A stretch of 64,000 nt of DNA from Asterias amurensis (Eukaryota > Echinodermata > Asteroidea > Forcipulatida > Asteriidae), in NCBI RefSeq assembly GCF_032118995.1, contig NC_092669.1, positions 11,022,335 through 11,086,334 of the forward strand, given 5' to 3'. The position numbers were made by a program, and so were the translations under genes. Of this stretch, positions 2,460-59,772 are shown piece after piece (positions within the stretch are counted from its first letter, which is position 1; each line of letters begins with the position of its first letter). Under the pieces are notes generated by a model. That model saw nothing but the letters and a program-made list of their open reading frames with translations, ran no database searches and was not told the origin of the DNA.

Positions 2460-3460
2460 ATTCACCCTAAGAAGTGCAGACACACACTAGGTGCGGATCA
2501 GATGCATTGCCAGCTAAACCAGGGCAAACCCTTGTCCTTACAATACAATACTCATCATAGTGCTACTGCCAAGGCTAGCTAGAGTCAAGACAGTTAAATG
2601 CTGCAGGCTCCTGGGGTCCTTTAGTAGAGTTAGACTTTACCCAGTTACTGGGTCTAGCACAACTGTAACTCCACAGCTCCTCAGTGACAGTCTCACTACT
2701 CAGGTTGTATTCAAATTGGTGGCTATGGCGTACTCCTAGAGAACTATTTCGGTTTCGTCCGCTATCGTGTTATGGGAGACGATAGCAGACGAAACTGAAA
2801 TAGTTCTAGCTGTGGCTAATGGCTAAAGCTGTTAATTAAACTAAGGGTGTTGCTTAGGTCAGGATGTCCTTGTAATCAGTCAGTAGACGATTAATAACAA
2901 CACTAGGCCTACCTACAATGTCCTAGACTCCTAGAACTATGGAGTATGAGGTTTGTTCTGCTATCATCTCTGAGTCCATGTAGAGACAATAGCGGAACGA
3001 ACCTCATACTTCTAGGAGTAGCAACACCCATGAACAACTCTCACTCTATGGGTCGGATGTATCCGAATTGGCGGCTATACGACTACAGCTGTATCACATG
3101 TTCATGATTGTTACTGAATTCAAAAGGTGTTGCTAAGTAAAGAATGTCTATACTCCAATGCTCGATGAGGCGGGTCCAGCCATGTCCGCCAATGTGGACA
3201 TGGCCTAACTCTCAGCCAATGCTGACCTCAGCGAGGGCGCTGTTTTACCTTATAAAGTCACATGTATGCCCGGATATGATAAAGTGCAAAAGTGGAACTG
3301 TGTACAACATGCTTTCTTAGAATGTAATTTTCTTGTAAGAATTGGCGGCTACAACTAGGGCTACGAGTGTCGCTAAGGGTATTGAGAACATCAACGCACG
3401 ATGATGCGCAAATCCAGATGTACTGTAGCCGCTTATTCAGAGAATTGTCTTAATTCAATA
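2460..3460. repeat. Diverged repeat block with two long hairpins
   Basis: The phrases AATTGGCGGCTA and GGTGTTGCTAAG recur near 2713, 2845, 3068, 3126, 3341 and 3370, suggesting old tandem units of roughly 300 bp. Two imperfect hairpins lie inside, at 2735-2808 and 2929-3019, with arms of about 30-38 bases and short loops. No coding exon is visible. Confidence 0.55.
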
Positions 3461-3689
3461 AAATTTATATTTTGAAAAGCTAGATGTTTAGAAAAAAAAG
3501 GTAACTTAAGATCAGAGGCTGACAAACAATTTCACGCTTTTTGGCGAAAGACATCTTCCTAATTTTTCACCTTTTTTTGTTTCTCTCTGTAGGACTCCTG
3601 GACATCATTTTTCTGAAATGAACTCAAAAGTAAAAGTTCAGACATCACTGAAGTCAGGACTACATGTAGGACAGTTTCAACCTTTTATT

Positions 3690-5275
3690 TTATACTGGTG
3701 AGTTCCAACTCAAGATATTTTGTCTGATTTTTTTCTTGCAATGTTGCTCATTGTCCCGTACCCCTCCCCTGCCAACCTCCCCTTCAACTGTATAAGCCTT
3801 TGCGTACAATGCATCCCAGCCTCCCCCTTTTCTATTTGACTTGAACCGCCCCCAAGATGTTAGGCTTGTACTTCCATCCCAACCTCCCCCTTTATTTTTC
3901 AATCTGGAACAGCCCCCAAGATGTTCCCGTGCTATTAGCCTCGTACAACCCATCCCATTCTCCCCTTTTCTTTCCATCTTGAACCGCCCCCAAGATACCT
4001 CTTCTACTATTAGCCTTGTACTTCCATCCCAACCTCCCCCTTTTCTTTCCATCTTGAACCGCCCCAAGATATACCCCATCAACTACTACTGTATAAGGCC
4101 AAATAAAAAATAAAACATGTTTTGCGTCCTGCCTTTTAAAAAAAAAGGAAGGACCTTCTTTTTTTAATAAATGGCCCCCCTGCACCTTTTAAAAGACAAA
4201 CAACTTGGATCATAAAATGCATTACTTTTTTTCCTTAAAAAACCCTCAAACAAAACCAAAAAAGGACGCAGCCTCTAAAAAAGTAAATGGGTAGGGATGC
4301 TTTTCTAAACATGTTTTTTTTTTTTACTTAGCCTTGTACAATCCATCCCAACCTCCCCCTTTTCTTTCCATCTTGAACCGCCCCAAGATATACCCCTTCT
4401 ACTATTAGCCTTGTACTTCCATCCCAACCTCCCCCTTTTTTTTCCATCTTGAACCGCCCCCAAGTATACCCCATCAACTACTTCTGTATAAGGCTAAATA
4501 AAAAATAAAACATGTTTTGCGTCCTGCCTTTTTGAAAAAAGGAAGGACCTTCTTTTTTAATAAATGCCCCCCTGCACCTTTTAAAAGACAAACAACTTGG
4601 ATCATAAAATGCATTACTTTTTTTCCTTAAAAAACCCTCAAACAAAACCAAAAAAGGACGCAGCCTCTAAAAAAGTAAATGGGTAGGGATGCTTTTCTAA
4701 ACATGTTTTTTTTTTTACTTAGCCTTGTACAATCCATCCCAACCTCCCCCTTTTCTTTCCATCTTGAACCGCCCCAAGATATACCCCTTCGACTATTAGC
4801 CTTGTACTTCCATCCCAACCTCCCCCTTTTTTTCCCATCTTGAACTGCCCCCAAGTATACCCCATCAACTACTTCTGTATAAGGCTAAATAAAAAATAAA
4901 ACATGTTTTGCGTCCTGCCTTTTTGAAAAAAGGAAGGACCTTCTTTTTTAATAAATGCCCCCCTGCACCTTTTAAAAGACAAACAACTTGGATCATAAAA
5001 TGCATTACTTTTTTTCCTTAAAAAAACCCTCAAACAAAACCAAAAAAGGACGCAGCCTCTAAAAAAGTAAATGGGTAGGGATGCTTTTCTAAACATGTTT
5101 TTTTTTTTTACTTAGCCTTGTACAATCCATCCCAACCTCCCCCTTTTCTTTCCATCTTGAACCGCCCCAAGATATACCCCTTCTACTATTAGCCTTGTAC
5201 TTCCATCCCAACCTCCCCTTTTCTTTCCATCTTGAATCGCTCCCAAGAAGATGTACCCCATTCAATTACCAGCCT
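3690..5275. repeat. Compound tandem array, ~393 bp period
   Basis: Pyrimidine-rich short units of about 60 bases (CCATCCCAACCTCCCCCTTT, then CATCTTGAACCGCCCC and AAGATATACCCC) are embedded in a larger unit repeated three times. The phrase AAAACATGTTTTGCGTCCTG occurs at about 4113, 4507 and 4900, giving a period near 393. Open frames read here only reflect the repeat and are not genes. Confidence 0.85.
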
Positions 5276-5461
5276 GGATGCCTATCAGTTCCACTAATTA
5301 ATTGACAAAAGAAACAAATGAATATAATGTAACTCAGTTAGGTTTCTTCATAAATTCCATTTGAGTTTTATTTATTTACTTCAATAATCAAAAGTGCAAC
5401 TGTCACAAAAGCAAAAACTTTAATCAAACAAATTTAAAAAGTACAAAAGTAAACACTTTAC

Positions 5462-5740
5462 TTCAAGGGCATGGACACTATTGGTCATTTTTCAAAATGT
5501 TGTTTATAAATACTTACTTGGTAACGAGCAACAGAGAGCTATAACTTGGTAACGAGCAACAGAGAGCTATTGCATAGCTCTGCATTGCTTGTTACCAAGT
5601 AAGTATATTGATAATATAAAACATTGTGAGAAATGGCGCCCTCTGAAGTATACATAGTTTGATCCAAAATTTTCACAGGTTTGTTAATTTATGCATTATG
5701 TTGAGATACACCAAGTGAGAATACTGGCCTTTAAGAGACA
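5462..5740 (-). mobile_element. MITE family 1, rearranged copy
   Basis: Both ends of family 1 are present (GGCATGGACACTATTGG at the left, TTTAAGAGACATTG at the right). The interior is shortened and contains a local direct repeat of ACTTGGTAACGAGCAACAG plus an inverted GCTTGTTACCAAGTAAG, so it can fold at 5515-5605. Confidence 0.6.
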
Positions 5741-6994
5741 TTGAAAATTTTAAACAATTCTACTACAGAGACTATTGGTTGAAATTCAACTGCTCACTAA
5801 TGGGATAGGAAATTGTTTATAAAATTGCTGACTTTTGATAGTTTAAATAGGCACACTATTGTTTGATACTAAGGTTAAAATTAAATACAGACTGTCACAT
5901 TTGATCAATGGCTCTTTTAATTCAAACAATTCTTTATTCTTTGATTTCTGATCTGTTTACAGGTTCATTAAGATGATGAGGAGCAACAGTTTCCTCACAA
6001 GAGATGCATCAGGGCTTTGATGAGAACACTTGGCTTGTAGCTTCATCGTGACTTCAAACACTTTATCATCTCTCTACTACCTCAACTCTGTAAACTATTC
6101 AATACTAGGATATTAAGGTAGGTTTTTTTGTTTTGTTTCAAGAGTTGTAAAAAGGTCTGTTTACAAATAAACACTTTGACAAAGCTGCACTTTGACTTCA
6201 TCATCAAGATACTTAAAGGGCCTGTCAGTCACACTAAATCAATTTATTGGCAACTTTGAGCAACTGCTGCAGTACACACAAACAAAAACACTTTGATATC
6301 AAAGTGCTTTTTCAAACATGGTCTCACTATTCCCCCAATAAGTAAACATTCAGAAAGCAATGTTTCTTCTTCTTGGGTATTTTATTTTAAAGTGGTTGGC
6401 AATAAATTGCCTCGTGGGACATGGACCTTTTGCACTTATTGTAGTCCAGTCCCCGGGGAAAGCCAGGGATGTACAAAAAACAAGTCCCCTTGCCCGGCAT
6501 GGCAGTAGGGGGGCATGGCAGTAGGGGGGCATGGCTTGGACTATCACCCAGGGCCAGTTTTACTTTTTCCGATCCCTGGCCATGTTCTCTGCTAGTCCCG
6601 AGTCCCCCTACAAGACTCAAACACACTTCCTCTGAAATTTTTTTACAATCAAATAAAGTGTGCAAAAAAGCAATGCAGTTATATTGATGAAGTCTTACAT
6701 TTTGTAAACAGACCTTTACTAATAATCAGTCCTTTGTTGCGACTGTTGATGTAATAAGGTACATATCGATTGGTGCTGGCAGAAGAATATTTAAAGTTAC
6801 TTTTAAATGCCATTTTGCTGGCAAAGCTTATAGTACAACAATCAACTCATCAGCAGAAAGCACACAATGAATTGCAATGGCCACATTTGTTAAAGGCTAC
6901 TAATGCTAAGCTGCAATATAAATGTGTTGATGGAATTACACTACCTCAGTCATGTGTCTTTTAATAATCCATTCTCTTGGAGAGTGTAACTTTC
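5741..6994. other. Unassigned intergenic sequence
   Basis: Contains the exon-like segment 5962-6117 (acceptor TTTACAG, donor GTAGGT) with no clear frame, and at 6450-6620 a G-rich tract with a direct repeat of CATGGCAGTAGGGGGG. Open frames on both strands of 6290-6690 overlap one another and resemble nothing I know. Confidence 0.4.
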
Positions 6995-14246: not shown

Positions 14247-14685
14247 GGGGTCAATTTCATCTGCTAAGCACAAAAAATTTAGCTTACATTAAATTTCTTC
14301 TTTGATTAAAACAGGATTACCAACCAAATTTCCACGTGATTTTCAGGCTTATAAGCAAACAACAGCTGAATACCAGTATAAGGCAAAATGCAACAATTGG
14401 ACGTTTTGGTTGGTAATCTTGTTTTTATCAGGGAAGAAATTTCATGCAGAGCTCCTTTTAGTGCTTAGCAGATAAAGCCTGTAAGCACAAAAATTTGCAT
14501 ACCATAAACCAAGATTACCAACCAAACTTTAATTTGTTCCCTGTTACTTGTTACTGGCATTCAGCTGTTGTTTGCTTATCCTGGAAATCACATGAATATT
14601 TGGTTGGAAATCCTATTTTTATTAAGGAAGAAATTTCATGCTAAGCAATTTTTTGTGCTAACAGGCTTTATGACATTGGGCCCTG
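14247..14685. mobile_element. MITE family 4 (CAATTTCATAGAGCTGCTAAG), nested copies
   Basis: Two adjoining copies with inverted halves: TTCATCTGCTAAGCACAA at the left, AAATTTCATGCTAAGC and GGGCCC at the right, with inner arms GGATTACCAACCAAATTT and TTTGGTTGGTAATCTTG. Full copies lie at 48035-48280 and 58473-58714. Confidence 0.7.
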
Positions 14686-15612: not shown

Positions 15613-15751
15613 TTATAAAACACAACAAAATTATAAAAAATTTGATCAAACATTATTTTAATAATGTGCCACCTGCTGTGGAGCAGACCTGGTTCTTCAA
15701 GAATTTGTGGCTCTGTAAATCTTTACAAAGGAAAATAAAGAATTTTTTGTT

Positions 15752-16138
15752 AAAGGCCTGGACACTATTGGCAATTACTCAAAATAAATGTTCACATAGA
15801 AACTAACTTGGTAACGAGCAGTGGAGAGCTGCTGATGGTATAAAACTTTGAGAGAAACGGCTGCCTCTGAGTCTGAAGTAACATAGTTTTTGAGAAAGAG
15901 GTCATTTCTCACAAATGAATTGAATTAGAGACCTCAGCTGAGGTTTCAAATTCAAGCATCTGAAAGCACACAACTGGTGCAACACAAGGGTGTTATTTCT
16001 TCCATGATTCTCTCGCAACTTCGACGACCTAATTGAGTTCAAATTTTCACAGATTTTTTTTTTATGCAAATCTTAAGATACACCAAGTGAGAAGACTAGT
16101 CTTTTGACAATTACCAAAAGGTGTCAGGTGCCTTTAAT
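15752..16138 (-). mobile_element. MITE family 1
   Basis: Starts TTAAAGGCCTGGACACTATT and ends GTGTCAGGTGCCTTTAA, with an internal GAGACCTCAGCTGAGG arm. Confidence 0.85.
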
Positions 16139-19079: not shown

Positions 19080-19470
19080 TTAAAGGCAGTGGATACTATT
19101 GGTAATTACTCAAAATATTTGTTAGCATAAAAACTTACTTGGTAACAAGCAATGGAGAGTTGTTGATAATATAACAAATTGTGACAAACGGCTCCCTCTG
19201 AAGTGCCATAGTTTTCGAGAAAGAAGTAATTTTCCACAAATTTGATTTCGAGACCTCAGATTTAGAACTTGAGGTCTCGAAACCAAACATCTAAACGCAC
19301 ACAACTTCGTGTGACAAGGGTGGTTTTTTTTTCTCTCATTATTATCTCGCAACTTCGATGACCGATTGAGCTCAAAGTTTCACAGGTTTGTTATTTTATG
19401 CATATGTTGAGATACACCAAGAGAGAAGACTGGTCTTTGACAATTACTAATAGTGTCCACTGTCTTTAAA
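19080..19470 (-). mobile_element. MITE family 1
   Basis: From TTTAAAGGCAGTGGATACTA to GTGTCCACTGTCTTTAA, in the opposite direction to the 18580 copy, with a clear GAGACCTCAGATTTAGAACT / GAGGTCTCG palindrome. Confidence 0.85.
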
Positions 19471-20164: not shown

Positions 20165-20541
20165 ATACACTTTTGGTAATTGTCAAAGAACGGTCTTCTC
20201 ACTTGGTGTATCTCAACATATGCATGAAATAACAAACCTGTGAAAACTTGAGCACAATTGGTCGTCGAAGTTGCGAGATAATAATAAAAGTAAAAACACC
20301 CTGGTCACACAAAGTTGTGTGCTTTCAGATGCTTGATTTCGAGACCTAAAATTCTAAATCTGAGGTCTCGAAATCAAATTCGTGGAAAATTACTTCTTTC
20401 TCGAAAACTACGCCACTTCAGATGGAGCCGTTTCTCACAATGTTTTATACTATCAACCTCTCCCCATTACTCGTTACCAAGAAAGGTTTTATGCTAATAA
20501 TTGTTTTGAGTAATTACCATTAGTGTCCACTGCCTTTAATC
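20165..20541 (+). mobile_element. MITE family 1
   Basis: Nearly full length, ending AGTGTCCACTGCCTTTAA. The internal palindrome GATTTCGAGACCT/GAGGTCTCGAAATC is intact. Confidence 0.85.
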
Positions 20542-26975: not shown

Positions 26976-27234
26976 TCCTCATATACCAGGAAAAAAAATC
27001 GTTATCAGAGGTGATCGAGACATTGTCCCAAACAACTTTTTTTAAGAAGTGATATTTGCAGATCCTCAAACTAAAAAGCAACAAAAAGATGTAAGCGCGT
27101 TTTTAGACTGTCGGCAACAGCTTCCCCTTAAAATGTAATTATCTTTCAGGTCTTAGGGATTGCAACATTAGGAATACCTATTGTACACAATTCATTATTA
27201 AAGTTGGACCACACACTCCGACAAAATTCACCCT

Positions 27235-27618
27235 TATAGACACTGGACACTATTGGTAACTGTCAAAGACCAGTCTTCTCACGTAGTGTATCCCAACATA
27301 TGCATAAAATAACAAACCTGTGAAAATTTGAGCTCACTCGGTCGTCGAAATTGCGAGATAATAATGAAAGAAAAAAACACCCTTGTCACACGAAGTTGTG
27401 TGCTTTCAGATGCTTGATTTCGAGACCTTAAATTCTAAACCTGAGGTCTCGAAATCAAAGTCGTCAAATTACTTCTTCCTCGAAAATTACTCCACTTCAG
27501 AGGGAGCCGTTTCTCACAATGTTTTATACCATCAACCTCTCCCCATTACTCGTAACCAAGTAAGGTTTTATGCTAATAAATATTTTGAGTAATTACTAAT
27601 AGTGTCCACTGCCTTCAA
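27235..27618 (+). mobile_element. MITE family 1
   Basis: Full-length copy just beyond the 3' end of the JmjC gene, AGACACTGGACACTATTGG to GTGTCCACTGCCTTCAA. Confidence 0.85.
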
Positions 27619-27646
27619 GACTCATTCATGATGTTATGCTAATGAG

Positions 27647-30600
27647 CTAAGTGTGTTCATGAGGACTGCTGTTGATTTGCCTAATGGCATCTTCAGTTAC
27701 TTGACGTCCTTCGTCCAGAACTTCTTGGGGTATCAGAGAAGTTGCCGCCATCACCTGCAGAACACACACAAAGAAATAATGAACTCGAGATCAAGTATAT
27801 ACATGTAAGAGATGTTAAATTTGCATCTTTTTTTACCCATACACCGATGTGTGTTAAGCACTGTATACTCAGTACTTTCCCGAGTCCACTGAAAAAAACC
27901 CATAGGATTCGAACTGCCTCTAGCTACCGGGCAACCTTGGTAGTCTAGTTGGTAAGACACTGCTCTAGAATTGCAAGGGTCATGGGTTCGAATCCCAAGT
28001 GACCCATTCCATGAGCAGGGCACTGGGAGCTGACCCAAGTGAGCCCTTGGAATGCTGTCAAAGCTATTAGAACGTACCGGGGGCAGACCAGGGTCTGACC
28101 CAGGAAAGCAATATCGAACGCACCCATTATAAGCTTGCCTCAAACTATTTGACATAGCAACTGTCTCGATAGTCTGATGAATTCAAATTTAAGTGGTAAA
28201 TTGTGATCAAGCATGTCATTGTACCAGACATTATTCAAATTGAATGATTGCATAGTTGGAGTGATGGGTTCATGTTTTACCTGCTCTTTTGGGGTCAGGA
28301 TCTCAAAGTCTTTGGGCAACATTTCTTTTGTCACACTCCCTGCCTTCAGAATCTCCTCCAGCACATTCCTGCAAGATGACAAAGTAATTATCACATAAAT
28401 AAATAATGACGATTTCAGGCTTTGAATAAGGGAATCAATGTGTGGTGAAGAGGTTTTCAACTAGTGGTTTAAAGCCATTATACACTTTCGGTAAACAGTT
28501 TTGTCCAAGTCCCATACTTCGTGTATCACAACTTATATATAAAATAACAAACCTGTGGAAATTTAGGCTCAATCGGACATCGGAGTCGGGAGAAAATAAC
28601 GGGAAAACCCACTCCTGTTTTCGCGCGTTTCGCCGTGTCATGACATGTGTTTATAACAAATCCGTAATTCTCGCTAACGAGAATTTATATTGTTATACCG
28701 TTTTCTCAAAAAGTAAAGCATTTCATGGACTAATATTTCAAGAGAAGTCTTTCACCATTACCTTCTGTAAACCCTGTAAATTATTTGTAAATCTGTGAAC
28801 TTTTTTTTTTTTTCTGTACCGAAAGGGTCCAATGGCTTTAATCCCAGCGAGGCCTGGTTTATGGTCAAAAAGTAAAATAAACGCAAAAATTATAATTTTT
28901 CAATGATTTCTTTCAACACAACACCCTACCAGCTATGAAATGGTAAGGCCCAGTCAAGGCCCTCGGGTAAACAACTCCTTATAAGGGAATGCTGTGCGTG
29001 TCGCGCATATTGCGTGATGTGGGACAACTGTCTCGGCCGTTACTCTTGACCAATAGGAATGAAGAAACTGCCTTATAAGCACAGGTGCAAACTCGGGTGT
29101 CACGCCCATGTTTCAACACTTTTTACTGGTCATAAACAAAGGTTTATACACACCCACGTGACGTGCTCTCCACCAATAGGGATAGCGAAACTGTCTGAGG
29201 TATTTATGAATTTCGTTTTTTGAAGGGGCACAGCAATTTTCACCTGGTAAGAGGACCTTTTTTGAGGAAAATGAAAGTTTGTATTGGAACTTTGCAGAGG
29301 GCACCACAGCAAAGAGGGGGGGGGGGCTACCCACCTATAGTTAGCCGTGTTCATAACTTGGCTGCTGACTGCTATTGTTTCCATGTCGTTGTACGCTTGG
29401 TGGAACCACCCGGTTGGTATTATGAGGAGCTCCCCGGGGTGCTGGGTGAAGGTGATGGCCCTCGCTTGGGCAAACATTGGGTAGGTCTGGAGATCCGGAT
29501 CAAAGGCATCTATGGGGCTAAAAAAGGGAAACAGGATTAGAATTTGAAATAATATTATTCTCTCTATTTTTTTTGTATTTTTGTTATGCAAGTGGAAGTG
29601 TCGTGACCGAGCGGTTGAGAGCACCGAATTCAAACTCTGGTGTTTCTGATTGTGATTTCGAATCCCAAGCCGTGACACTTGTGTCCTTAAGCAAGACACT
29701 TAACCATTGCTTCGTCCTTCAGATGGGACGTAAAGCCGTTGGTCCCATGTGTTGTGTAACGCATGTAAAAGAACCCAGTGCACTTATCGAAAAGAAAAAG
29801 GGTTCACCCCGGTGTTCCTGGCTGTGAATGCTGTATGCGCAATAGCACGTTGTATACCCTTATAAGGTGCTACATAATTAGGTCTCATCGCTGCAGTAAC
29901 CTATCTTTTTCAGAAAGTTTGTATATATATACTCAGCGCCTTGAGTACCTTTGTTGGTAGATATGTGTGCTATATAAGACTTTTGATATTATTAAAGACA
30001 CTAGACACTATTCGTAACTGTCAAAGACCAGTCTTCTCACTTGGTGTATCTCAACATATGGATAAAATAAAGAACCCGTGAAAGTTTTAGCTTAATTGGT
30101 CGTCGAGGTTGCGAGATAATAATGAAAGAAAAAATACTCTTGTCACACGAAGTTGTGTGCATTTAGATGGTTGATTTCGAGACCTCAAATTCTAAATCTA
30201 AGGTCTGGAAATCAAAATCGTGGAAAATTACTCCTTTCTCGAAAACTATGGCACTTCAGAGGGAGCCGTTTCTCACAATGTTTTATACCATCAACCTCTC
30301 CCTACTACTAGTTACCAAGTAAGGTTTTATGCCAATAATTATTTTGAGTAATTACCAACAGTGTCCACTGCCTTTAAGTGTAGCTCCATGAAATTTGACT
30401 CGAGTCTGGCGCTCCAAACCACCAAACTACGACAGGCCATCCCTCTTACCTGTTGTATTTAAAACTTTTCAGTGGAAAACCAGAGAGGCGGTTGGGTAAG
30501 ACGTACAGGAAGTCATCTTGGCCGGGTGGGTAGAGCTTCCATTTCTTCAGCCCTTTGAACACGGCGTTGGTCCCGGTCCAATTATATGGATCTGTAAAGA

Positions 30601-33600: not shown

Positions 33601-35596
33601 AATCTGCCCTGTTGTTAAAAAACAAATTATGTGAACAGGACACTATTGGTAATTGTCAAAGACTAGTCTTCTCACTGGCTGTATCTCAACATGCATACTG
33701 TGAAAATTTGAGCTCAATCGGTCATTAAAGTTGCAAGATAATAATGAAAGAAAAAACACCCTCGTCACGCGAAGTTGTGTGCTTTTAGGTGCTTGATTTC
33801 GAGACCTCAAATTCTAAATCTGAGGTCTCAAAAATCAAACTTGTGGAAAATTACTTCTTTCTCAAAAACTACATCACTTCAGAGGGAGCTGTTTCTCACA
33901 ATGTTTTATACTATCAACCTCTCCCCATTACTTGTTACCAAGTAAGGTTTTATGCTAATAATTATTTTGAGAAATTACCAATAGTGTCCACTGCCTTTAA
34001 ATCATTATCACAAGCAGGGAGCCGATCCTTACCTCAACGGCTTTCATAGCGACTCGTTCGTTGGGGTAGCTAGTTGCAAAGAAGTTCTTGTCCCATCCCA
34101 TGGCTCCCCAGTGCTGAAGGACATCTTGTATGATTACAGGTCTTCGAAAAGAAAAAGTGAATGGAAACTATTTCATTACTTATAATAATTTGGGGGGCCA
34201 ATCATCCTTACTTGCAGCTAAGAGCTGAATTGCGAAGGACGCAGCTACAACGTGTTCGAGAAGCAGGCATCCAAGGGCGCCTTTGGCTGCCAGCCATATC
34301 AACCCATTATGACCACACGGACCACCGCCAAGATCAAAATTGTTTGATTTTTCCCAAGGGAGGAGAACCAGATGGTCGTGAAAACCCTCGCGGCACAGCA
34401 GAGAACCAACGCACAACTTAACTCACATAATGGCCCTGGCCAGGAATCAAACCGCGGTTACCTTGGTGAGAGGCGAGCGCTTTAGGCACACGCCAACCAT
34501 GTCACCCACTAATTTTACTTACTTACTTAGCTGTTTAGGACAGGGTTTTCCTTGGCCTCCTTGAGAAGACTGGTCTTTGACAATTACCGAAGGTGTCCAG
34601 TGACTTTTATCCTTTAGTAAGGAAGAGACTGGTGAAAGCGATGGCTGGTCTTTGACAATTACCAAATGTTTCCAGTGCTTTATAAAGGAGCACGTCACGT
34701 GGGGGTGTTAAACGGTTGATAACGACCAGCTGGAGCTGTTTATAACCGGCTGGCTTCCGCGTGTTGGGCGCGCAAGAATATCACGCAGAACGCAATTCAT
34801 AGCTATTAGTAACAGCGCGTAATCTAAGCGCGCGCGCGTACACACAACCAACGCGCATCAAACAGATTCTTCACAAAGTTTTTGAAAAAAATATTTAAAA
34901 CCATAAATTTTCAATTGTTAAAGTGTCTATATCTGTATTTTTTTAAATGTTTTTTAACAAAAGGGCATCTATAAATGGGAATAAAAGAGTAGTGACTCGT
35001 TACGTTTAAAACATTGCAGGGTCGTTGCCATTCGATAAAGGCCCTCACCTTCAGCTCGAGCCTTTCTCTCACGGCAACGACCCTGGCGGGTTTAAAGAGC
35101 CGTTTAAGAACTCGTTGCTACCCTTTTATTCCCTTATTTAAGTTTCAGTAAATGTCCCTTGTCTTGTTTACCTTTTACCATCATACAGTTGTCGGAATTC
35201 TTCCAGACTTAGATTACTCCGTCGCTCGATGACATCGTCAAAATACCACCCACTGGACCAAGAATGCTGAAACTGCAAAGGATGTATCATCTTGACATAA
35301 TCATAGAACACTTGTACATCCCCATGCTTTAAGCCGGCGATCGTCAGAACAGCAACCAGGCCGATGAAAATCCAGTGGGGGTAGTACTGAGGTTGGAATG
35401 CATTGTTTATCCTTCTGGCGCGGGAATGGCTTGCTCTAGGTGGCGTTGGGTTGTCAGAGTTCGGTGTGTTGCTGGTGGCTCTGACTTGTTGGTAGGTAGA
35501 GGTTGGCGGCGGGGTTGTTGTTGTGACACCTGCTGCATTTGAGTTTTTATTTTTGCGTCTCTTTCCAGATGGCATGGTGGTTTTGATTTTGTTCAT
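27647..35596 (-). CDS. Membrane-anchored JmjC/cupin-8 hydroxylase, 8 exons
   Basis: Coding exons: 35172-35596, 34033-34141, 33459-33608, 32272-32377, 30450-30591, 29335-29517, 28281-28368, 27647-27754. All junctions are GT-AG, phases agree, and 1311 bases give 436 codons plus stop. The N-terminus is basic (SGKRRKNKNS) and Thr/Pro-rich, then one hydrophobic segment at about 74-89 (HWIFIGLVAVLTIAGL): a type II signal anchor that would place the rest in the ER or Golgi lumen. An NLS sequon at 128-130 and NWT at about 267 fit that. The double-stranded beta-helix carries H262-I-D264 (the codon for D264 is split by an intron), NAVFKGLKKWKLYPPG, and H350 in IIPTGWFHQAYND: the HxD...H iron triad of Fe(II)/2-oxoglutarate oxygenases. 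Lysines at 276-282 may bind 2-oxoglutarate. The substrate is unknown; JMJD8-like or another small JmjC protein is possible, and I cannot name an orthologue. A downstream ATG at codon 8 is an alternative start. Confidence 0.88.
28010..28125. mobile_element. MITE family 6 half plus tRNA-like SINE head
   Basis: 27935-28003 is a tRNA-like head (GGTAGTCTAGTTGGTAAGAC ... GGGTTCGAATCCC). From about 28010 it becomes the right half of the element at 60455-60691, ending AACGCACCC. This lies in JmjC intron 7. Confidence 0.6.
28475..28842. mobile_element. MITE family 5 (AAGCCATTATACACTTTCGG)
   Basis: Starts TTTAAAGCCATTATACACTT and ends with the inverted AAGGGTCCAATGGCTTTAA. The interior includes GAATTCTCGCTAACGAGAATTT-like inverted sequence near 28672. 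A close copy in opposite sense is at 56136-56508, in PTGR1 copy B. It sits in JmjC intron 6. Confidence 0.8.
28843..29334. other. JmjC intron 6 remainder
   Basis: Mixed sequence with a G run at 29316-29326 immediately inside the donor of the 29335-29517 exon. No other feature is recognised. Confidence 0.4.
29597..29985 (+). repeat. Full-length tRNA-derived SINE
   Basis: Head: GTGTCGTGACCGAGCGGTTG (A box) to TTTCGAATCCCAAGC (B box). Body: CACTTGTGTCCTTAAGCAAG, GGGACGTAAAGCCGTTGGTC, AAGAACCCAGTGCACTTATC. The tail ends with GTGTGCTATATAAGAC and TTATT. It lies in JmjC intron 5 and is the reference copy for those at 8025, 23217 and 26100. Confidence 0.85.
29993..30378 (+). mobile_element. MITE family 1, JmjC intron 5
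   Basis: Directly abuts the SINE above. From TTAAAGACACTAGACACTAT to AGTGTCCACTGCCTTTAA. Confidence 0.85.
30600..30905. other. JmjC intron 4, A-rich part
   Basis: A-rich low-complexity sequence (30640-30670, 30850-30870); nothing else is seen. Confidence 0.4.
30912..31028. mobile_element. Short MITE (ATAGACCTTATGCA)
   Basis: Exact inverted termini ATAGACCTTATGCA and TGCATAAGGTCTAT around a ~90 bp GC-richer centre with GACGTCAT. Confidence 0.7.
31540..31724. mobile_element. MITE family 6 (GGGTGCGTTCGTTTAGCTT), degenerate
   Basis: Begins GGGTGCATTCGATTAGCTTG, contains GCTCATTCGGGTGAGCCCCT, and ends GAAGCTACTCGAACTC. Homologous to 60455-60691. Confidence 0.75.
31879..31976 (-). pseudogene. 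Extra copy of JmjC HxD exon (copy 3)
   Basis: Nearly the same as the downstream 98 bases of the used exon 32272-32377. It encodes GDFLKLFPKKIQLWNAM then FLWGIRYSRSSLHI, with the same GTTAGTT donor, so the iron-binding His is kept. Its acceptor side is not the original: AACAG|GGCTGGGGAC. Splicing it from the upstream phase-0 donor would shift the frame, so it is probably not used as is. Confidence 0.7.
32081..32178 (-). pseudogene. Extra copy of JmjC HxD exon (copy 2)
   Basis: Encodes GDFFKLSPKEIQPWNAM then FLWGTRYSRSSLHI, no stop, donor kept. The same replaced acceptor side as copy 3 shows that copies 2 and 3 derive from one partial duplication that was then repeated with ~200 bp spacing. 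Same phase problem. Confidence 0.7.
32517..32696. mobile_element. MITE family 4 fragment
   Basis: GGGGCCAATTTTATAGAG at the left and TGTATGATATAGGGCCC at the right, with AAGCAGAAATAAGCAGG inside; in JmjC intron 3. Confidence 0.65.
32850..33315. repeat. Intronic tandem repeat, ~60 bp units
   Basis: Units with CACTGACATTTGAACCCAGT, TACTTATTCAGTTTCCA and CAAGATCTCTTTGATCAGT repeat about seven times. The right half (33100-33315) is the most regular. Confidence 0.85.
33636..34002 (+). mobile_element. MITE family 1, JmjC intron 2
   Basis: From ACAGGACACTATTGGTAATT to GTGTCCACTGCCTTTAAA, starting 28 bases upstream (in the gene's sense) of the exon 33459-33608 acceptor. Confidence 0.85.
34165..34505 (-). 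repeat. tRNA-derived SINE, second type, JmjC intron 1
   Basis: On the minus strand a tRNA-like head (GACATGGTTGGCGTGTGCC ... CGGTTTGATTCCTGGC) is followed by a body with GAGGGTTTTCACGACCATCT and GGTTCTCCTCCCTTGGG, ending in an AAATTATTATAAGT tail. It is distinct from the 29597 family. Confidence 0.75.
34506..35165. other. JmjC intron 1 remainder
   Basis: Two short family 1 end fragments (34560-34610, 34645-34690). A GCGCGCGCGTAC tract lies at 34830. An inverted pair (GGGTCGTTGCCAT at 35021 and GGCAACGACCC at 35072) is part of a ~190 bp foldback, 34975-35145, with TGGGAATAAAAGAGTAGTGA and CTACCCTTTTATTCCC at its ends. Confidence 0.5.
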
Positions 35597-35844
35597 GAAC
35601 TTAAGTGAACCATTAGTGTTCGGTAACTAGAAAGAAAAAACAAAAATAATTTCATATTGAAAGTTGAAACCTTCCAACATGACTAATAAATACAGTAGAA
35701 TGATGGAATAAACTGCTGGCATTACTGTGATAAGACAGATGACGATGTGTAAAGAGAGAGAGCCATAACACTAACAGCCAAACAAGGTGGGATACACTGT
35801 AGTTGGGTGCATGGGTTTGTTTGTACTGGTATTACATGGAAACT

Positions 35845-36139
35845 AAAGACACTGGACACTATTGGTAATTGTCAAAGACCAGTCTTCTCACTTGGTGTAT
35901 CTCAACTCAACATATGCATAAAATAATCCAACCTGTGAAAATTTGAGCTCAATTGGTCGTCAAAGTTGCGAGATAATAATGAAAGAAAAAAACACCCTTG
36001 TCACACGAAGTCGTGTGCATTTAGATGGTTGAGACCTCAAATTCTAAATTTGAGGTCTCGAAATCAAATTCGTGGAAAATTACTTCTTTCTCGAAAACTG
36101 CGTCACTTCAGAGGGAGCTGTTTCTGACAATGTTTTATA
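35845..36139 (+). mobile_element. MITE family 1, left part (split by insertion)
   Basis: AAAGACACTGGACACTATTG onward, complete up to CAATGTTTTATA, then interrupted at 36140. The remainder resumes at 37829 and ends at about 37930 (GTGTCCACTGCCTTTAA). Confidence 0.9.
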
Positions 36140-37828
36140 CAAGGTTGTAGCTACCACGGTCGGAGCCGGTCGGCTATCACCGGCCCCAGCTTTTGCCGAC
36201 CGGGATCCAACAAAAAATATCAAACTCCGACCGGCATAAATTTATGTAAAACTGTTTTAAATGCCATTGAAATAAGAGAAAAATAAAGAAAACAATCATG
36301 TAAAACTCCTAATTAGATGTGTATTTTATTTCTGTAAAAACAATCAAAACAATTTTCTCTCCAAAACCGCGATCTTCTCCGTGATTGTTGTTTAAAAATA
36401 AGCCGCTTGAATGCTGCGAGTTCATGAAGTACTAAAAAAAGCACGCACAATCTCCGGCGTGCGTGTAGTCCATGATGCACAAAACCACATGGTAATACTC
36501 ACACGGTCACCCACTGGTTCATGCAGCATGCACAGCACATAACACACAGTCTTAACCAAGATTCCGCACGCTGTGATTGGCCATTGATGGCTGTTAATAA
36601 ATCCATATTCATGATCTTCTTGGCTAGCCTTCTTCACAACACACGCTCACGAACGGAGAATTTGCGAAGAATTGGCGAACGTTGTGCATCACGCCTGCAG
36701 ACTGTATGCACAATGCACAGCCTTGGAGGAATTCTAGTAACATGGAAAACTTCTGCCAACAGAGGGCGTTGCAGGCCAAAGTTCATTGAATTATTTCTCA
36801 ATGTGTGTTGTTGACCGATCGTTGATTCACGAAGATTTTGTTGCAAACGGAGATCAGAACATGTTCAAAACAAACAATTCTCAAACAACAAGTTCATTCA
36901 AATGGTTGTTGATAATTTAGGGCATAAATTAAGAGATAAAGTCGTCCAATTTTAGGGACTTCACTTCCGTGTTTTTTTTAATATTTTTTTTTAGTTTCAA
37001 TTTTTTTGTGGTACCATGCAGCAGGCTAGTGAAAAAACCTGCGGGCGATCAAGAATTTTGGTTGACTCGCCCGGCGGGCGGTTGAAAACAAAGTTATTCT
37101 GATGGGCGGACAATGTTGGTGGAGTCGTCGAAGTTGCATTAAATTTTTATTTAGAATTTTATTTAGGTGATTTTCCTGTCTATTAATACTTGTTGAAAAA
37201 AAAAAAAAATGAAATGACAAGAATCAATTTTTGAGTTTATTGAATGCACTTCGTTGAGAAATTGTCAATGAATACAGTGTTTCTCAGTGAAACATGGCTT
37301 GTCTATTTTACTAATGTGCTCCTTTTTGAAATGGAATAGTCTAGATTTTGCGGCAGTGATCGGACATGTGTCCCGTCATCCTGTGTTTCTCTCCACTCTG
37401 CATTGCCTTCTGATGAATATATGCAACTGCAAGCTTTTCAATTGATAAATTCAACACTCAAAAATTCTGCCTAGTAGTCTACCTACCCTATTTTGAGATG
37501 GGATTTAAATCGTAAACAGAATATTAATTTTATTTATTTTACCTTAACATTTTACTTTAAAACTTAATAAGTATTTATTTTCTATGGCTCCCTGAACATG
37601 TTTTTTCCTTTGACAATGGCTATGTCAAGGCACAAATAGGCAAGAGAGAGCCTGGAGAACCCATCAAAGCTTAAACAAAACCTAAAAATCTTCAGCTTCC
37701 AAAGACGCTGCCCCTGTTGATCCCACCGGGTTGTGAGGCGCTACGCTGCCCCTACATGTACACCCACCTTCTCGACCATGCTCTCGACAAAATTAGCCGG
37801 CATCCAATTTGCCCTAGCTACAACCTTG
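36140..37828. mobile_element. Non-autonomous hAT-like element, 1.69 kb
   Basis: Perfect 14 bp inverted termini CAAGGTTGTAGCTA...TAGCTACAACCTTG, flanked by an 8 bp direct duplication GTTTTATA (36132-36139 and 37829-37836). The interrupted host MITE gives the empty site. 8 bp duplications and this terminus length are typical of the hAT superfamily. The interior has no transposase that I can recognise; it has patches such as GGTCGGAGCCGGTCGGC near 36160 and GCCCGGCGGGCGG near 37068. Confidence 0.85.
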
Positions 37829-39146: not shown

Positions 39147-39152
39147 GATAAA

Positions 39153-41045
39153 TATGGGGCGCCGTTTGTCCATTAATTGTTTGACACTTTTAAGGCATGT
39201 TTTTACCATGGTTTACAGCAATTAGATGTAAACCATAGAAACTGTTGCCAAATCCTGTTATGGTTTACATACCAGTAAAGTATTTGTTGTGTATAAGTTT
39301 ATGGTTTACAAACCATGAACATACAAAAAACATTTACAAATCATGGTTCATAAACCAAGAAAATTTACGCATCTTAAAAACATGGTTTATAAACCATAAA
39401 AAATGAAGCATCAAATTCATGGTTTACAAACCATGAAAATTGAGACATCTAAAAAACATGGTTTATAAACCATGCAAATTGAAGAATAAAAATCGTGGTT
39501 TACAAATCATGGTTTATAAACCATAACAAATGAACCATAAAATCATGGTTTGTGACAATGGTTTATAAACCATGAAAATCGAGACTTCTTAAAAAACATG
39601 GTTTATAAACCATGAAAATCGAGACTTCTTAATAAACATGGTTTATAAACCATGAAAATTTACACATCTCAAAAACGTTGTTTGTAAACCATAAAAAAAA
39701 AGTGCACTTACAAATCATGGTTTACAAACCATAAAAATGTGCACTCAGAAATCATGGTTTACAAACCATAAAAAATGTGCACTCAGAAATCATGGTTTAC
39801 AAACCATAAAAAATGTGCACTCAGAAATCATGGTTTACAAACCATAAAAACCTATATGATCGTCACAACTAAACCTCCTTCCCAATTCTGATCGGTCCCC
39901 ATTTCCCCCATGCCACGTGCGAGCCAGCAATGATGCAATGCACCATCACGCTGTGATCAATGCACCTCGTGTGTTATGCTGCCAGCCATAGCAAGCATTC
40001 ATAGAGCTATTATTGCAACAGCATTACACAACAGGTGCATTGATCACAGCTTGACACACATGGTGCATTGCATCATTGCTGGCTCGCACGTGGCCTGGGG
40101 GAAATGGGAACCGATCAGAATTGGGAAGGAGGTTTAATTGAGACGATCATATAGGTTTTTATGGTTTGTAAACCATGATTTCTGAGTGCACATTTTTTAT
40201 GTTTTGTAAACCATGATTTCTGAATGCACATTTTTTATGGTTTGTAAACCATGATTTGAGAGTGCATATTTTTTATGGTTTGTAAACCATGATTTCTGAG
40301 GGCCCGTTTTTATGGTTTATAAACCATGATTTGTGAGTGCACATATTTATGGTTTATAAACCATGATTTCTGACTGCACATTTTTTATGGTTTGTAAACC
40401 ATGATTTCTGAGCGCACATTTTTATGGTTTGTAAACCATGATTTGTAAGTGCACTTTTTTTATGGTTTACAAACAACGTTTTTGAGATGTGTAAATTTTC
40501 ATTGTTTATAAACCATGTTTATTAAGAAGTCTCGATTTTCATGGTTTATAAACCATGTTTTTAAGAAGTCTCGATTTTCATGGTTTATAAACCATGTTTT
40601 TTAAGAAGTCTCGATTTTCATGGTTTATAAACCATTGTCACAAACCATGATTTTATGGTTCATTTGTTATGGTTTATAAACCATGATTTGTAAACCACGA
40701 TCTTGACTCTTCAATTTTCATGGTTTATAAACCATGTTTTTAAGATGTCTCAATTTTCATGGTTTGTAAACCATGATTTGTAAACCATGAATTTGATGCT
40801 TCATTTTTTATGGTTTATAAACCATGTTTTTAAGATGCGTAAATTTTCTTGGTTTATGAACCATGATTTGTAAATGTTTTTTGTATGTTCATGGTTTATA
40901 AACCATAAACTTATACACAACAAATACTTTACTGGTATGTAAGGATTTGGCAACAGTTTCTATGGTTTACATCTAATTGCTGTAAACCATGGTAAAAACA
41001 TGCCTTAAAAGTGTCAAACAATTAATGGACAAACGGCGCCCCATA
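39153..41045. mobile_element. 1.9 kb palindromic foldback element of ATGGTTTATAAACCAT units
   Basis: Two arms of about 820-850 bp are inverted copies of each other around a ~40 base centre near 39980-40018. Ends are TATGGGGCGCCGTTTGTCC and the inverse. Each arm contains about 18-20 small palindromes, TGGTTTATAAACCA or TGGTTTACAAACCA, separated by ~15-25 base spacers such as GAAAATCGAGACTTCTTAA. GATAAA occurs directly on both sides (39147-39152, 41046-41051), and unit B has a single GATAAA at 50732, the empty site. A TA duplication (termini TGGGGCGCC) is an alternative reading. No coding region. It resembles foldback-type non-autonomous DNA transposons, but I do not know this family. Confidence 0.85.
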
Positions 41046-41261
41046 GATAAAGGGGACAATGGAGGAGGTGCCCTTTTCAAACCACAGTCCACTTTGATAA
41101 GGGGAGAATCTGGGAGGGCCAATGCCTCTTTAAAACCATAGTCCACGTTGTTATATACGAGGATCTCACTAAAATTGACAATTTATTCTTGATAAAACTG
41201 AGCAGCCTACCACATGCGGATTCGATCAGTTCTCTGCTGTGCCGTAAATTCATTCCTCAAA

Positions 41262-48484
<7,223 letters not shown>

Positions 48485-49219: not shown

Positions 49220-49586
49220 CTAGTCATCTCGCCACCTGACAAGCTCGCCACCAACAAAGTCGCCCCCTAGCAAAGTGGCCCCCAGACGTTGTTCGGAAAA
49301 TAATTAAGGCTACAATAATTATGGTAAAAAATATAGTTAAAACATTTTCATAAATCCATCTAAAGTAATGTGCTTGTGGAAGATCTAACCCTAACCCTAA
49401 CCCTAAGCCCTAACCCTAACCCTTCATTATTTTCTGGGGGCGACTTTGCTAGGGGGGCGACATTGTTTGGGGGCAACATTGTCAGGGGGCGACTTTGTAA
49501 CAACTCGGGGCGAGCCGATTAGGGGGCGACTTTGCAGGGGGCGACTTTGTTGGTGGCGAGCTTGCTAGGTGGCGAAATGACCAGCC
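49220..49586. mobile_element. Inverted-repeat element with telomere-like core
   Basis: About 50 bp inverted ends: TCTCGCCACCTGACAAGCTC and its near inverse GAGCTTGCTAGGTGGCG, with further ACCAACAAAGTCGCCCCC / GGGGGCGACTTTGTTGGT. The right half repeats GGGGGCGACTTTG about five times. In the middle, 49388-49425 is (CCCTAA)n with one CTAAGCCC interruption. No coding capacity. Confidence 0.75.
49388..49425. repeat. Interstitial telomeric repeat (TTAGGG)n
   Basis: Six units of CCCTAA in 38 bases, one with an extra base. It is inside the inverted-repeat element above, not at a chromosome end. Confidence 0.85.
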
Positions 49587-50110: not shown

Positions 50111-50956
50111 AGCGCCACCGTTTGGTGAATCATGTCCAACTTTGACTTTGAAGAAAACAATTTTTGTCAACACTCATTATTTAAAAAAAAACTAAATCAG
50201 CCTCATTATCAAATCGCCAAAGAAAATTCTTTCTCGTGATTATTTTAAATGTTTTGGTTTTACAAAATCACCGCCAAAAGTACATTGCTCCGAAGTTTGA
50301 TAAGATATAAAACTTTACATGACTAGAAAAAAGAAGAGGAATGAGTTTGCAAAATTTGTGAATAACATTTTTGTTTGTTGAGCACTGTTTTTTAGGTCAA
50401 GGTTTGAGCGCTGTGCGTGTTTAAAGAGGGTGCGGGGCACCCTAAAAATAATTTTGGTCCTCAAATCTTTTTTTTTCTCTCGTCACGCGTCACCAACGGA
50501 AATGGGTGAGGCATTGTTATTATGGGTGGAGGGAAGGGGGGGGTCAGCTTTCAAGACAACAATATTATTTTCAGATCAAAGCACATTATGATGCATTCTA
50601 GTGTTTTTTTGCAGGACCTATAAATTGTAATTTTTTGGTTGGACTATATGATTCTGGAAGTTGGACGACAGACTGGAAGAGGGGAGGAGTGCCCCTTTTA
50701 AAACCAATCAACGCATTGTTATATCATGGAGGATAAAGGGGACAAATTTGGAGGGGGTGCCCCGTTGAAACCACAGTCCAGTTTGTTAAGGGGAGATCGG
50801 AGAATCTGGGTGGGCAAATACCTCTTTAAACCATAGTCCACATTGGTATATAAGAGGATCTCACTAAAATTGTCAATTCATTCTGGATAAAGTTGAGCAG
50901 CCTACCACTTGCGGATTCGATCAGTTCTCTGCTGTGCCGTAAATTGATTCCTCAAA

Positions 50957-58918
<7,962 letters not shown>

Positions 58919-59389
58919 TCTATTCTCGTGTGTTACTTTGAGAGTCCATTTTAGTTTAAAAACACCGCCATGTTTGTGTTTGTAGCGCCCTCTGCTGGTG
59001 AAAGGTGTCAAGAATCATGCTTGTAGTTTTGACTATTGTCATTCAGATAATTAAGTAATCTCATTTTTCGATAAAAACAAAGTGTACTTTATCGATCAAC
59101 TTTCATTAAAAACAACTTAAAAATGCTGCACTCTTTGGAACTTGGTAATTCAATTAAAACTAAATTTAAATCCGATATTACGACTCGTAAAAGACGAAAG
59201 AATCTGGACGCTAGGTGACAACTGGGCGCTACCAACAGACTAAATCAATTATAATCACAGACATACTGCATGTGGTTATAATATTATATCTTTTAGAAAA
59301 TACACATTGCGCAAGCGTTAACTGTTTTTGAGAAAGAGGTAACATCTCACTCAATTATTAAAAGGCTTCAGGCCTGAATTCTTTTAAAG

Positions 59390-59772
59390 ACAGTGGACAC
59401 TATTGGTAATTGTCAAAGACTAGTCTTCTCACTTAGTGGATCTCAACATATGTATAAAATAACAAACCGGTGAAAATTTGAGCTCAATATTGGTCGTCGA
59501 AGTTGTGAGATAACAATGAAAGAAAAAGCACCCTTGTCACATGAAGTTGTGTGCGTTTAGATGGTTGATTTGAGACCTCAAATTCTAAAATTGAGGTCTC
59601 GAAAACAAATTCGTGTAAAATAACTTCTTTCTCGAAAACTACGCCACTTGAGAAGGGCTGCCGTTTCTCACAATGTTTTATACTATCAACCTCTCCCCAT
59701 TACTCATTACCAACTGAGGTTTTATGGTGATAATTATTTTGAGTAATTAACAATAGTGTCCACTGCCTTTAA
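59390..59772 (+). mobile_element. MITE family 1, downstream of PTGR1 copy B
   Basis: TTTAAAGACAGTGGACACTA to GTGTCCACTGCCTTTAA. Its left third is shared with unit A at 49025-49140. Confidence 0.85.

Follow-up and report, generated by a model that had tools for sequence, protein, structure and literature searches.

A 1,893-bp inverted repeat in the 64,000-nucleotide stretch of Asterias amurensis DNA analysed here (the window) is probably a copy of a non-autonomous, foldback-type DNA transposon that belongs to a young family in this starfish and has probably been mobilised in trans by a DDE transposase of the IS3EU/GingerRoot type. The transposon reading rests on fixed ends (TATGGGGCGCC..GGCGCCCCATA), duplications of exactly 6 bp around all but two of 24 simple two-ended copies, an unoccupied paralogous site, and copies dispersed through the genome.

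Anatomy of the inverted repeat

The 1.9-kb inverted repeat with two defined ends described in the initial annotation was confirmed. It lies exactly at 39153–41045, bounded on both sides by a target-site duplication (TSD; GATAAA, direct repeats at 39147–39152 and 41046–41051). The left arm (39153–39980) is 828 bp long, within the ~820–850 bp first estimated for both arms, whereas the right arm (40017–41045) extends to 1,029 bp. Arm against arm, the outermost 104 bp are 100% complementary, and the full alignment holds 16 substitutions in 817 columns (98.0% identity; K2P 0.020). Its gaps span 9, 14, 39, 2, 74, 76, 6, and 3 bases; those of 39, 74, and 76 bases correspond to a single repeat unit or a pair of them, a step of 14 bases recurs between palindromes, and indels of these four sizes make up most of the excess of the right arm.

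From the outside inwards, each arm consists of an outer domain (~140–148 bp), then an array, then an inner domain, with a middle of ~36 bp between the arms. The left outer (flanking) domain (39153–39300, plus strand) starts with TATGGGGCGCC, is free of substitutions relative to the right arm across 139 aligned positions, and harbors a spaced half-site palindrome (ATGGTTTAC-11 bp-GTAAACCAT, 39208–39236; DNA hairpin of −8.8 kcal/mol). It is followed on the same strand by the left array (39301–39850), made of palindrome-centred units at steps of mostly 37–42 bp, and by the left inner domain (39851–39980), with eight substitutions in 130 aligned bases relative to the right arm. The middle (39981–40016) is unpaired in the arm alignment. 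Beyond it, in minus orientation, lie the right inner domain (40017–40155), the right array (40156–40906), whose 21 palindromes exceed the left array mainly by whole units, and the right outer domain (40907–41045), which terminates in GGCGCCCCATA. This is the anatomy of a foldback element—long terminal inverted repeats (TIRs) with internal tandem repeats, a short middle and no long open reading frame. The longest stop-to-stop segment in the whole element encodes 67 amino acids; the element is non-coding.

Palindromic units and predicted folding

Allowing at most one mismatch, TGGTTTRYAAACCA occurs 37 times in the window, each time within the element, compared with 0.07 occurrences expected from dinucleotide shuffles. 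Sixteen of these palindromes lie in the left arm (one, at 39261, just outside the array stretch) and 21 in the right, and 15 of the 37 are perfect. Their half-sites recur, 11 bp apart, in the outer domain (39208–39236). The arms had been described as arrays of about 18–20 palindromes each; the arrays are confirmed, with slightly different counts. Steps between palindromes are mostly 37–42 bp, though steps of 14 and 49 bp also occur, and since no step within an array exceeds 49 bases, hardly any unit has been missed. Across the 37 units, 13 of the 14 core positions carry 1.42–2.00 bits and one carries 1.00, a conservation that is inflated, partly by construction, because units were chosen by matching this 14-bp core; spacer positions off the A-rich edges carry 0.18–0.85 bits.

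Between copies, we found no constraint on the palindromes: across 66 arms, the minor-allele fraction was 1.35% in palindromes and 1.42% in spacers, and the outer domain, at 1.62%, was not less variable than the array. The core conservation seen in the sequence would fit binding sites and also growth of the array around a palindrome; the palindromes may serve as sites to which a transposase binds or as seeds from which tandem repeats expand. Candidate transposase targets are the outer domains and perhaps also palindromes such as ATGGTTTATAAACCAT. It is conceivable, although we hold it doubtful, that the arms were built by repeated palindrome-centred amplification, with the palindromes serving as functional modules, either as cooperative docking sites for transposase dimers or as seeds of replication pausing and duplication.

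Folded as single-stranded DNA, the whole element reached a predicted −946 kcal/mol, compared with −148 to −169 kcal/mol in five mononucleotide shuffles, and 726 of the 865 pairs spanned more than 200 bases. The left arm alone gave −136 kcal/mol (−51 to −78 in ten shuffles), or −92.5 kcal/mol with local hairpins only, and a single palindrome −3.2 kcal/mol. Folding at two scales, as initially envisaged, is therefore possible energetically, but the predicted energies indicate that arm-to-arm pairing would dominate.

A dispersed family of foldback copies

We searched the A. amurensis genome (491,506,623 bases in 23 contigs) with the left arm as query and obtained at least 193 matches. The 27-base end, at three mismatches or fewer, occurred 222 times (110 forward, 112 reverse), compared with 0 and 0 for the reversed-pattern control. 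A search for other copies sharing the same ends, the check proposed in the initial annotation, thus returned them genome-wide, and close relatives of the element sit on many chromosomes. In viral contigs, neither the end patterns nor the palindrome pair had a match; in prokaryote genomes, the palindrome pair was not found and the end pattern gave one 19-base match with no similarity seen beyond it.

We read 41 loci with 70 ends in total: the window's own, 37 found by the left-arm search, and three found by the 27-base-end search. Of these loci, 24 are simple two-ended copies; among the remaining 17, two have two right ends, one has two left ends, and 14 show a single end in the fetched stretch. 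Apart from L014 and L047, every one of the 24 is flanked by a direct duplication of exactly 6 bp, varied in sequence (22 of 24). Across the 41 loci, the smallest measures 157 bp and the largest 6.8 kb, and palindrome numbers range from 0 to 102, the copy with 102 palindromes being 4.4 kb long. A further copy read afterwards, L050, is 148 bp long and carries the 6-bp duplication GAAGGC (judged by eye). Both it and L049 consist of outer domains only, and since their centres differ they are probably independent short forms, which may have moved as such or shrunk in place.

Units with TGGTTTATAAACCA at 37–42 bp characterise the short form, whereas in a longer form of 3.3–3.5 kb (L025, L028, L037, L038, L040, and L041) the interior contains repeated open segments of a second array, unrelated to the first, whose 42-bp units hold the palindrome TGTGCGCACA. 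Tandem Repeats Finder (TRF) read these 42-bp units in L010 and L047. Three loci of 6.5–6.7 kb (L010, L029, and L048) are family elements containing foreign inserts of ~3 kb of unrelated sequence. The insert in L048 (~3075–6175) has the ends ATTACAAAT..ATTTGTAAT, and its frames resemble a Tudor-knot domain (barely above the Pfam cut-off), an MSL3 chromo domain, and RAG1 (both under the cut-off). L047 (C3:9634782-9642170) is bounded by inverted rather than direct flanks (GTAAAGAAG..CTTCTTTAC) and has a foreign-looking middle and internal 21-bp arrays in opposite orientations; it is possibly a rearrangement through the arms. On C18, at ~5.1–6.9 Mb, four of eight listed unpaired minus-strand ends are followed by an integrase-like match, at 14.3, 14.3, 12.3, and 14.6 kb, a pattern that suggests segmental duplication of a stretch carrying a family copy.

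Superfamily signature and search for a transposase

The termini of the element, TATGG..CCATA, fall within the TAYGG..CCRTA pattern that, together with 6-bp TSDs and TIRs longer than 30 bp, has been reported for IS3EU families of rust fungi (PMC12730594). TA..TA termini are universal among complete IS3EU families, whose TSDs usually measure 6 bp; GingerRoot elements have 6-bp TSDs and, mostly, TA..TA termini (PMC10045372). The starfish family agrees in all three respects, with TA..TA termini, 6-bp TSDs in all but two of the 24 simple two-ended copies, and, in the window copy, TIRs far above 30 bp (104 bp of identical ends; 98.0% identity over 817 bases). Scanning the window for TA[CT]GG ends combined with a TIR and a 6-bp TSD returned one match, the element itself, and none in 50 first-order Markov sequences. 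At a boundary that the TSD sets independently, TAYGG would arise by chance about once in 512, assuming equal base frequencies.

It is on these termini that membership in IS3EU/GingerRoot rests, since neither a transposase nor an autonomous copy was recognised among the copies read, which cover part of the 222 ends and in which a gene split into short exons might escape detection. Open segments were listed at a threshold of 90 amino acids or more in nine loci and of 170 or more in L010–L049; a Pfam scan of 11 such segments from L010, L028, L029, L047, and L048 yielded no DDE transposase above the cut-off. In genome-wide profile searches, which score the best candidates only, the IS481 model had 69 matches and the rve_3 model 147. 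Many of these mark frames of 1300–1500 amino acids, which we took for retroelements because of that length. Comparison by eye with 100 listed ends of the 222 revealed one match on the inward side within 12 kb, C7:7152519, whose frame of 1506 amino acids has a length common to many other IS481/rve_3 matches. No occurrence of TATGGGGCGCCGTTTGTCC in the genome had C, G or T as its next base.

Several candidate autonomous partners were set aside. C16:6409209, chosen for its long model coverage, carries, as judged by eye, an integrase of the retrotransposon type preceded by a zinc-binding domain; L010, L029, and L048 are the family elements with ~3 kb of unrelated insert described above; and the middle of L047 looks foreign and bears its own arrays.

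Comparison with known elements

Sea urchin TU elements share with the starfish element long inverted terminal repeats, an outer domain of tandem repeats and an echinoderm host, but their repeats are 15 bp long and their TSDs 8 bp. With IS3EU/GingerRoot, the element shares 6-bp TSDs, TA..TA termini, and TIRs longer than 30 bp; unlike those elements, the starfish copies read contain no recognised transposase, and foldback arms with palindrome arrays are not among the published IS3EU descriptions in the portions available to us. Repeats have been linked to IS3EU elsewhere: two oyster satellites are classed as DNA/IS3EU (PMC8268682), and half of the beetle repeat TCAST10 resembles IS3EU-1_TC (PMC5844308).

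In overall architecture, the element resembles Tetris of Drosophila virilis, which is non-coding and has long TIRs in flanking, tandem-repeat, inner, and middle domains with a variable number of repeats; Tetris, however, has 220-bp repeats and 8–10 bp TSDs, as opposed to palindrome-centred units of 37–42 bp and 6-bp TSDs in the starfish (PMC4079207). The same paper mentions a sea urchin foldback element. Galileo, of the P superfamily, likewise has long, internally repetitive TIRs (PMC3688188) that are extended by tandem repeats (PMC4168063), and its repeats hold additional transposase-binding sites (PMC3688188), a precedent for a role of internal repeats. It differs from the starfish element in its TSDs of 7–8 bp (PMC4168063) and its P-type transposase, and the main text of PMC3688188 nowhere uses the word 'palindrome'. 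What is already known, then, is the foldback anatomy (PMC4079207), IS3EU itself, and repeats linked to IS3EU (PMC8268682, PMC5844308); among literature titles and abstract openings, we found no description of a foldback element with IS3EU-type ends or of palindrome-centred arm units.

The insertion site in one of two PTGR1 units

The element lies upstream of one of two tandem genes. Their proposed identity as PTGR1 was upheld, the top protein match being A. rubens 'prostaglandin reductase 1-like'. In tblastn, the A. rubens PTGR1-like protein P0001 was covered over its full length in both units, mostly at 79–100% identity per stretch, and lower identities arose only in stretches overrunning a short exon. 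From its conserved start codon (MPTTKG...) at 41262 to the final tblastn-matched exon, the gene of unit A occupies 41262–48481 on the plus strand; 216 bp separate it from the element, in line with the ~215 bases first given. The A. rubens model begins at an upstream ATG that is absent in unit B and lies here at 41214, 168 bp from the element. A TATATA motif at 41152–41157, a candidate TATA box, reads TATATACG in unit A and TATATAAG in unit B.

The uninterrupted target reported for unit B was recovered: GATAAA occurs there once, at 50732–50737, and is duplicated around the element in unit A. K2P distances between the flanks of the two units were 0.049, 0.060, 0.077, and 0.059 in four stretches, the long ones being those of 0.060 and 0.059.

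The units differ in further respects. In unit A, a duplication of ~198 bp at 45201–45331 repeats most of the PTGR1 exon at 44964–45140, and tblastn gave no second piece in unit B. A 151-bp tandem repeat at 46938–47543 has four copies in unit A versus ~1.5 in unit B. A short interstitial telomere-like array (CTAACC, ~6 copies) lies between the two genes at 49385–49423. Elsewhere, the window holds an interspersed family of ~375 bp with ~12 copies in both orientations, 73–91% alike (884–1256, 15750–16124, 19080–19469, 20167–20539, 27234–27619, 29992–30378, 33638–34006, 35844–36140, 53733–54102, 59384–59772, and others). Further palindromic stretches of ~246–393 bp align to their own or each other's reverse complement (53151–53504, 57307–57697, 14267–14659, 48033–48282, and 58471–58716), and an open segment on the minus strand at 29133–29699 shows cupin-like and JmjC similarity above the Pfam cut-offs.

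Alternative explanations

The arms had been considered either very young or kept alike by arm-to-arm conversion. We compared the outer 450 bases in 24 copies, that is, 26 less L027 and L049, in which this stretch does not contain two full arms (L015 and L020 were included). If gene conversion within each copy maintained the likeness, the element might be old, and several observations lean that way: palindromic arms are substrates for gene conversion, the mean difference is 1.58% within copies versus 3.42% between them, in 20 of the 24 copies an arm resembles its partner more than it does the median foreign arm, and, in the window copy, differences number 0/139 in the outer domain, 8/548 in the array, and 8/130 in the inner domain (Fisher p = 0.0014 for outer plus array vs inner; 0.089 for outer vs rest). 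Against it, a FastTree analysis joined the arms of the same copy as sisters in only one of the 24 (L014). A foreign arm was strictly closer to one arm than its own partner in 21, with ties in L010, L014, and L041, and the left arm of the window copy differs by 1.2% from its partner and by 0.23% from its nearest foreign arm, 26% of foreign arms being closer than the partner—although picking the nearest among many foreign arms somewhat favours the verdict against conversion. The lower within-copy mean is ascribed to shared subfamily descent. We thus disfavour conversion as the main cause, a very unlikely one on these figures, and consider that both arms came from the donor and resemble each other because the family is young; some conversion may contribute. 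Of the two earlier options, youth stands and conversion is unneeded, even if the lower within-copy mean is of the kind it would leave. As for timing, insertion after the tandem duplication, as the initial annotation had it, appears the simplest reading, and the flank divergence of 0.049–0.077, as against 0.020 between the arms, agrees with it. The picture would nonetheless be identical had the insertion come before the duplication, with unequal exchange between one haplotype that carried the element and one that lacked it, or with precise excision from unit B, either of which leaves a single GATAAA there. Precise excision without a footprint is uncommon for cut-and-paste elements, the units' flanks (K2P ~0.06) have diverged about threefold more than the arms (0.02), and we regard an older insertion as rather unlikely.

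The element could also be a foldback of the same kind from another superfamily with 6-bp duplications, such as a hAT lineage that makes 6-bp TSDs or an atypical foldback of the Mutator-like kind, its TATGG ends being coincidental. hAT families with 6-bp TSDs do exist (PMC12730594), most foldback elements seem to belong to Mutator (PMC4079207), and the copies read yielded no transposase that would settle the matter. Yet TSDs measure 8–10 bp in Tetris, which is ascribed to Mutator (PMC4079207), and 7–8 bp in Galileo (PMC4168063), compared with 6 bp in 22 of 24 copies here, short of the 8–10 bp of Mutator-type foldbacks and the 7–8 bp of the P superfamily. Dada elements, with TSDs of 6–7 bp, insert in small RNA genes, and their U1 and U6 families lack TIRs (PMC3706591), whereas the starfish element has long TIRs and the two Rfam tRNA-like matches in the window both lie more than 11 kb from the site. 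Together with the ~1 in 512 chance of TAYGG at a boundary fixed by the TSD, these differences make another superfamily unlikely. An assembly artefact, finally, is worth considering in that inverted arrays are hard to assemble, but it is hardly credible given 22 copies with clean 6-bp duplications, arms that carry individual differences from copy to copy, and an assembly built from a PacBio HiFi library of ~15 kb, exceeding the length of the element (PMC10625585).

Proposed mechanism and implications

On the preferred reading, a non-autonomous foldback transposon mobilised in trans, an IS3EU/GingerRoot-type transposase would bind the outer domains and perhaps the palindromes too, and the element would be cut out and joined to a target cleaved with a 6-bp stagger. 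Every new copy would take both arms from its donor, and the arrays would win or lose whole units through unequal exchange or replication slippage, so that arms would come to differ in length but little in sequence; the unit-sized indels observed in the arrays fit this reading. Counting against it are the absence of a recognised IS3EU transposase or autonomous copy among the loci read, the two of 24 two-ended copies that lack direct duplications, and the 17 of 41 loci that do not form simple pairs.

Foldback elements drive inversions in flies, and what causes their arms to grow into repeat arrays is unsettled. The family described here, in a HiFi-assembled genome, has copies ranging from one of 148 bp, made solely of outer domains, to one of 4.4 kb with 102 palindromes, so that arm growth, array turnover, and arm inheritance can be followed copy by copy. 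For PTGR1, the insertion put a potential strong hairpin 216 bp ahead of one gene of the tandem pair, where it may affect expression, as first proposed; the pair offers a natural comparison of expression. From this family it seems that the foldback form has evolved with IS3EU-type ends as well, and not only in Mutator and P; should the palindrome-centred amplification of the arms prove true, it would be a foldback lineage beyond those two superfamilies in which arm growth can be dissected.
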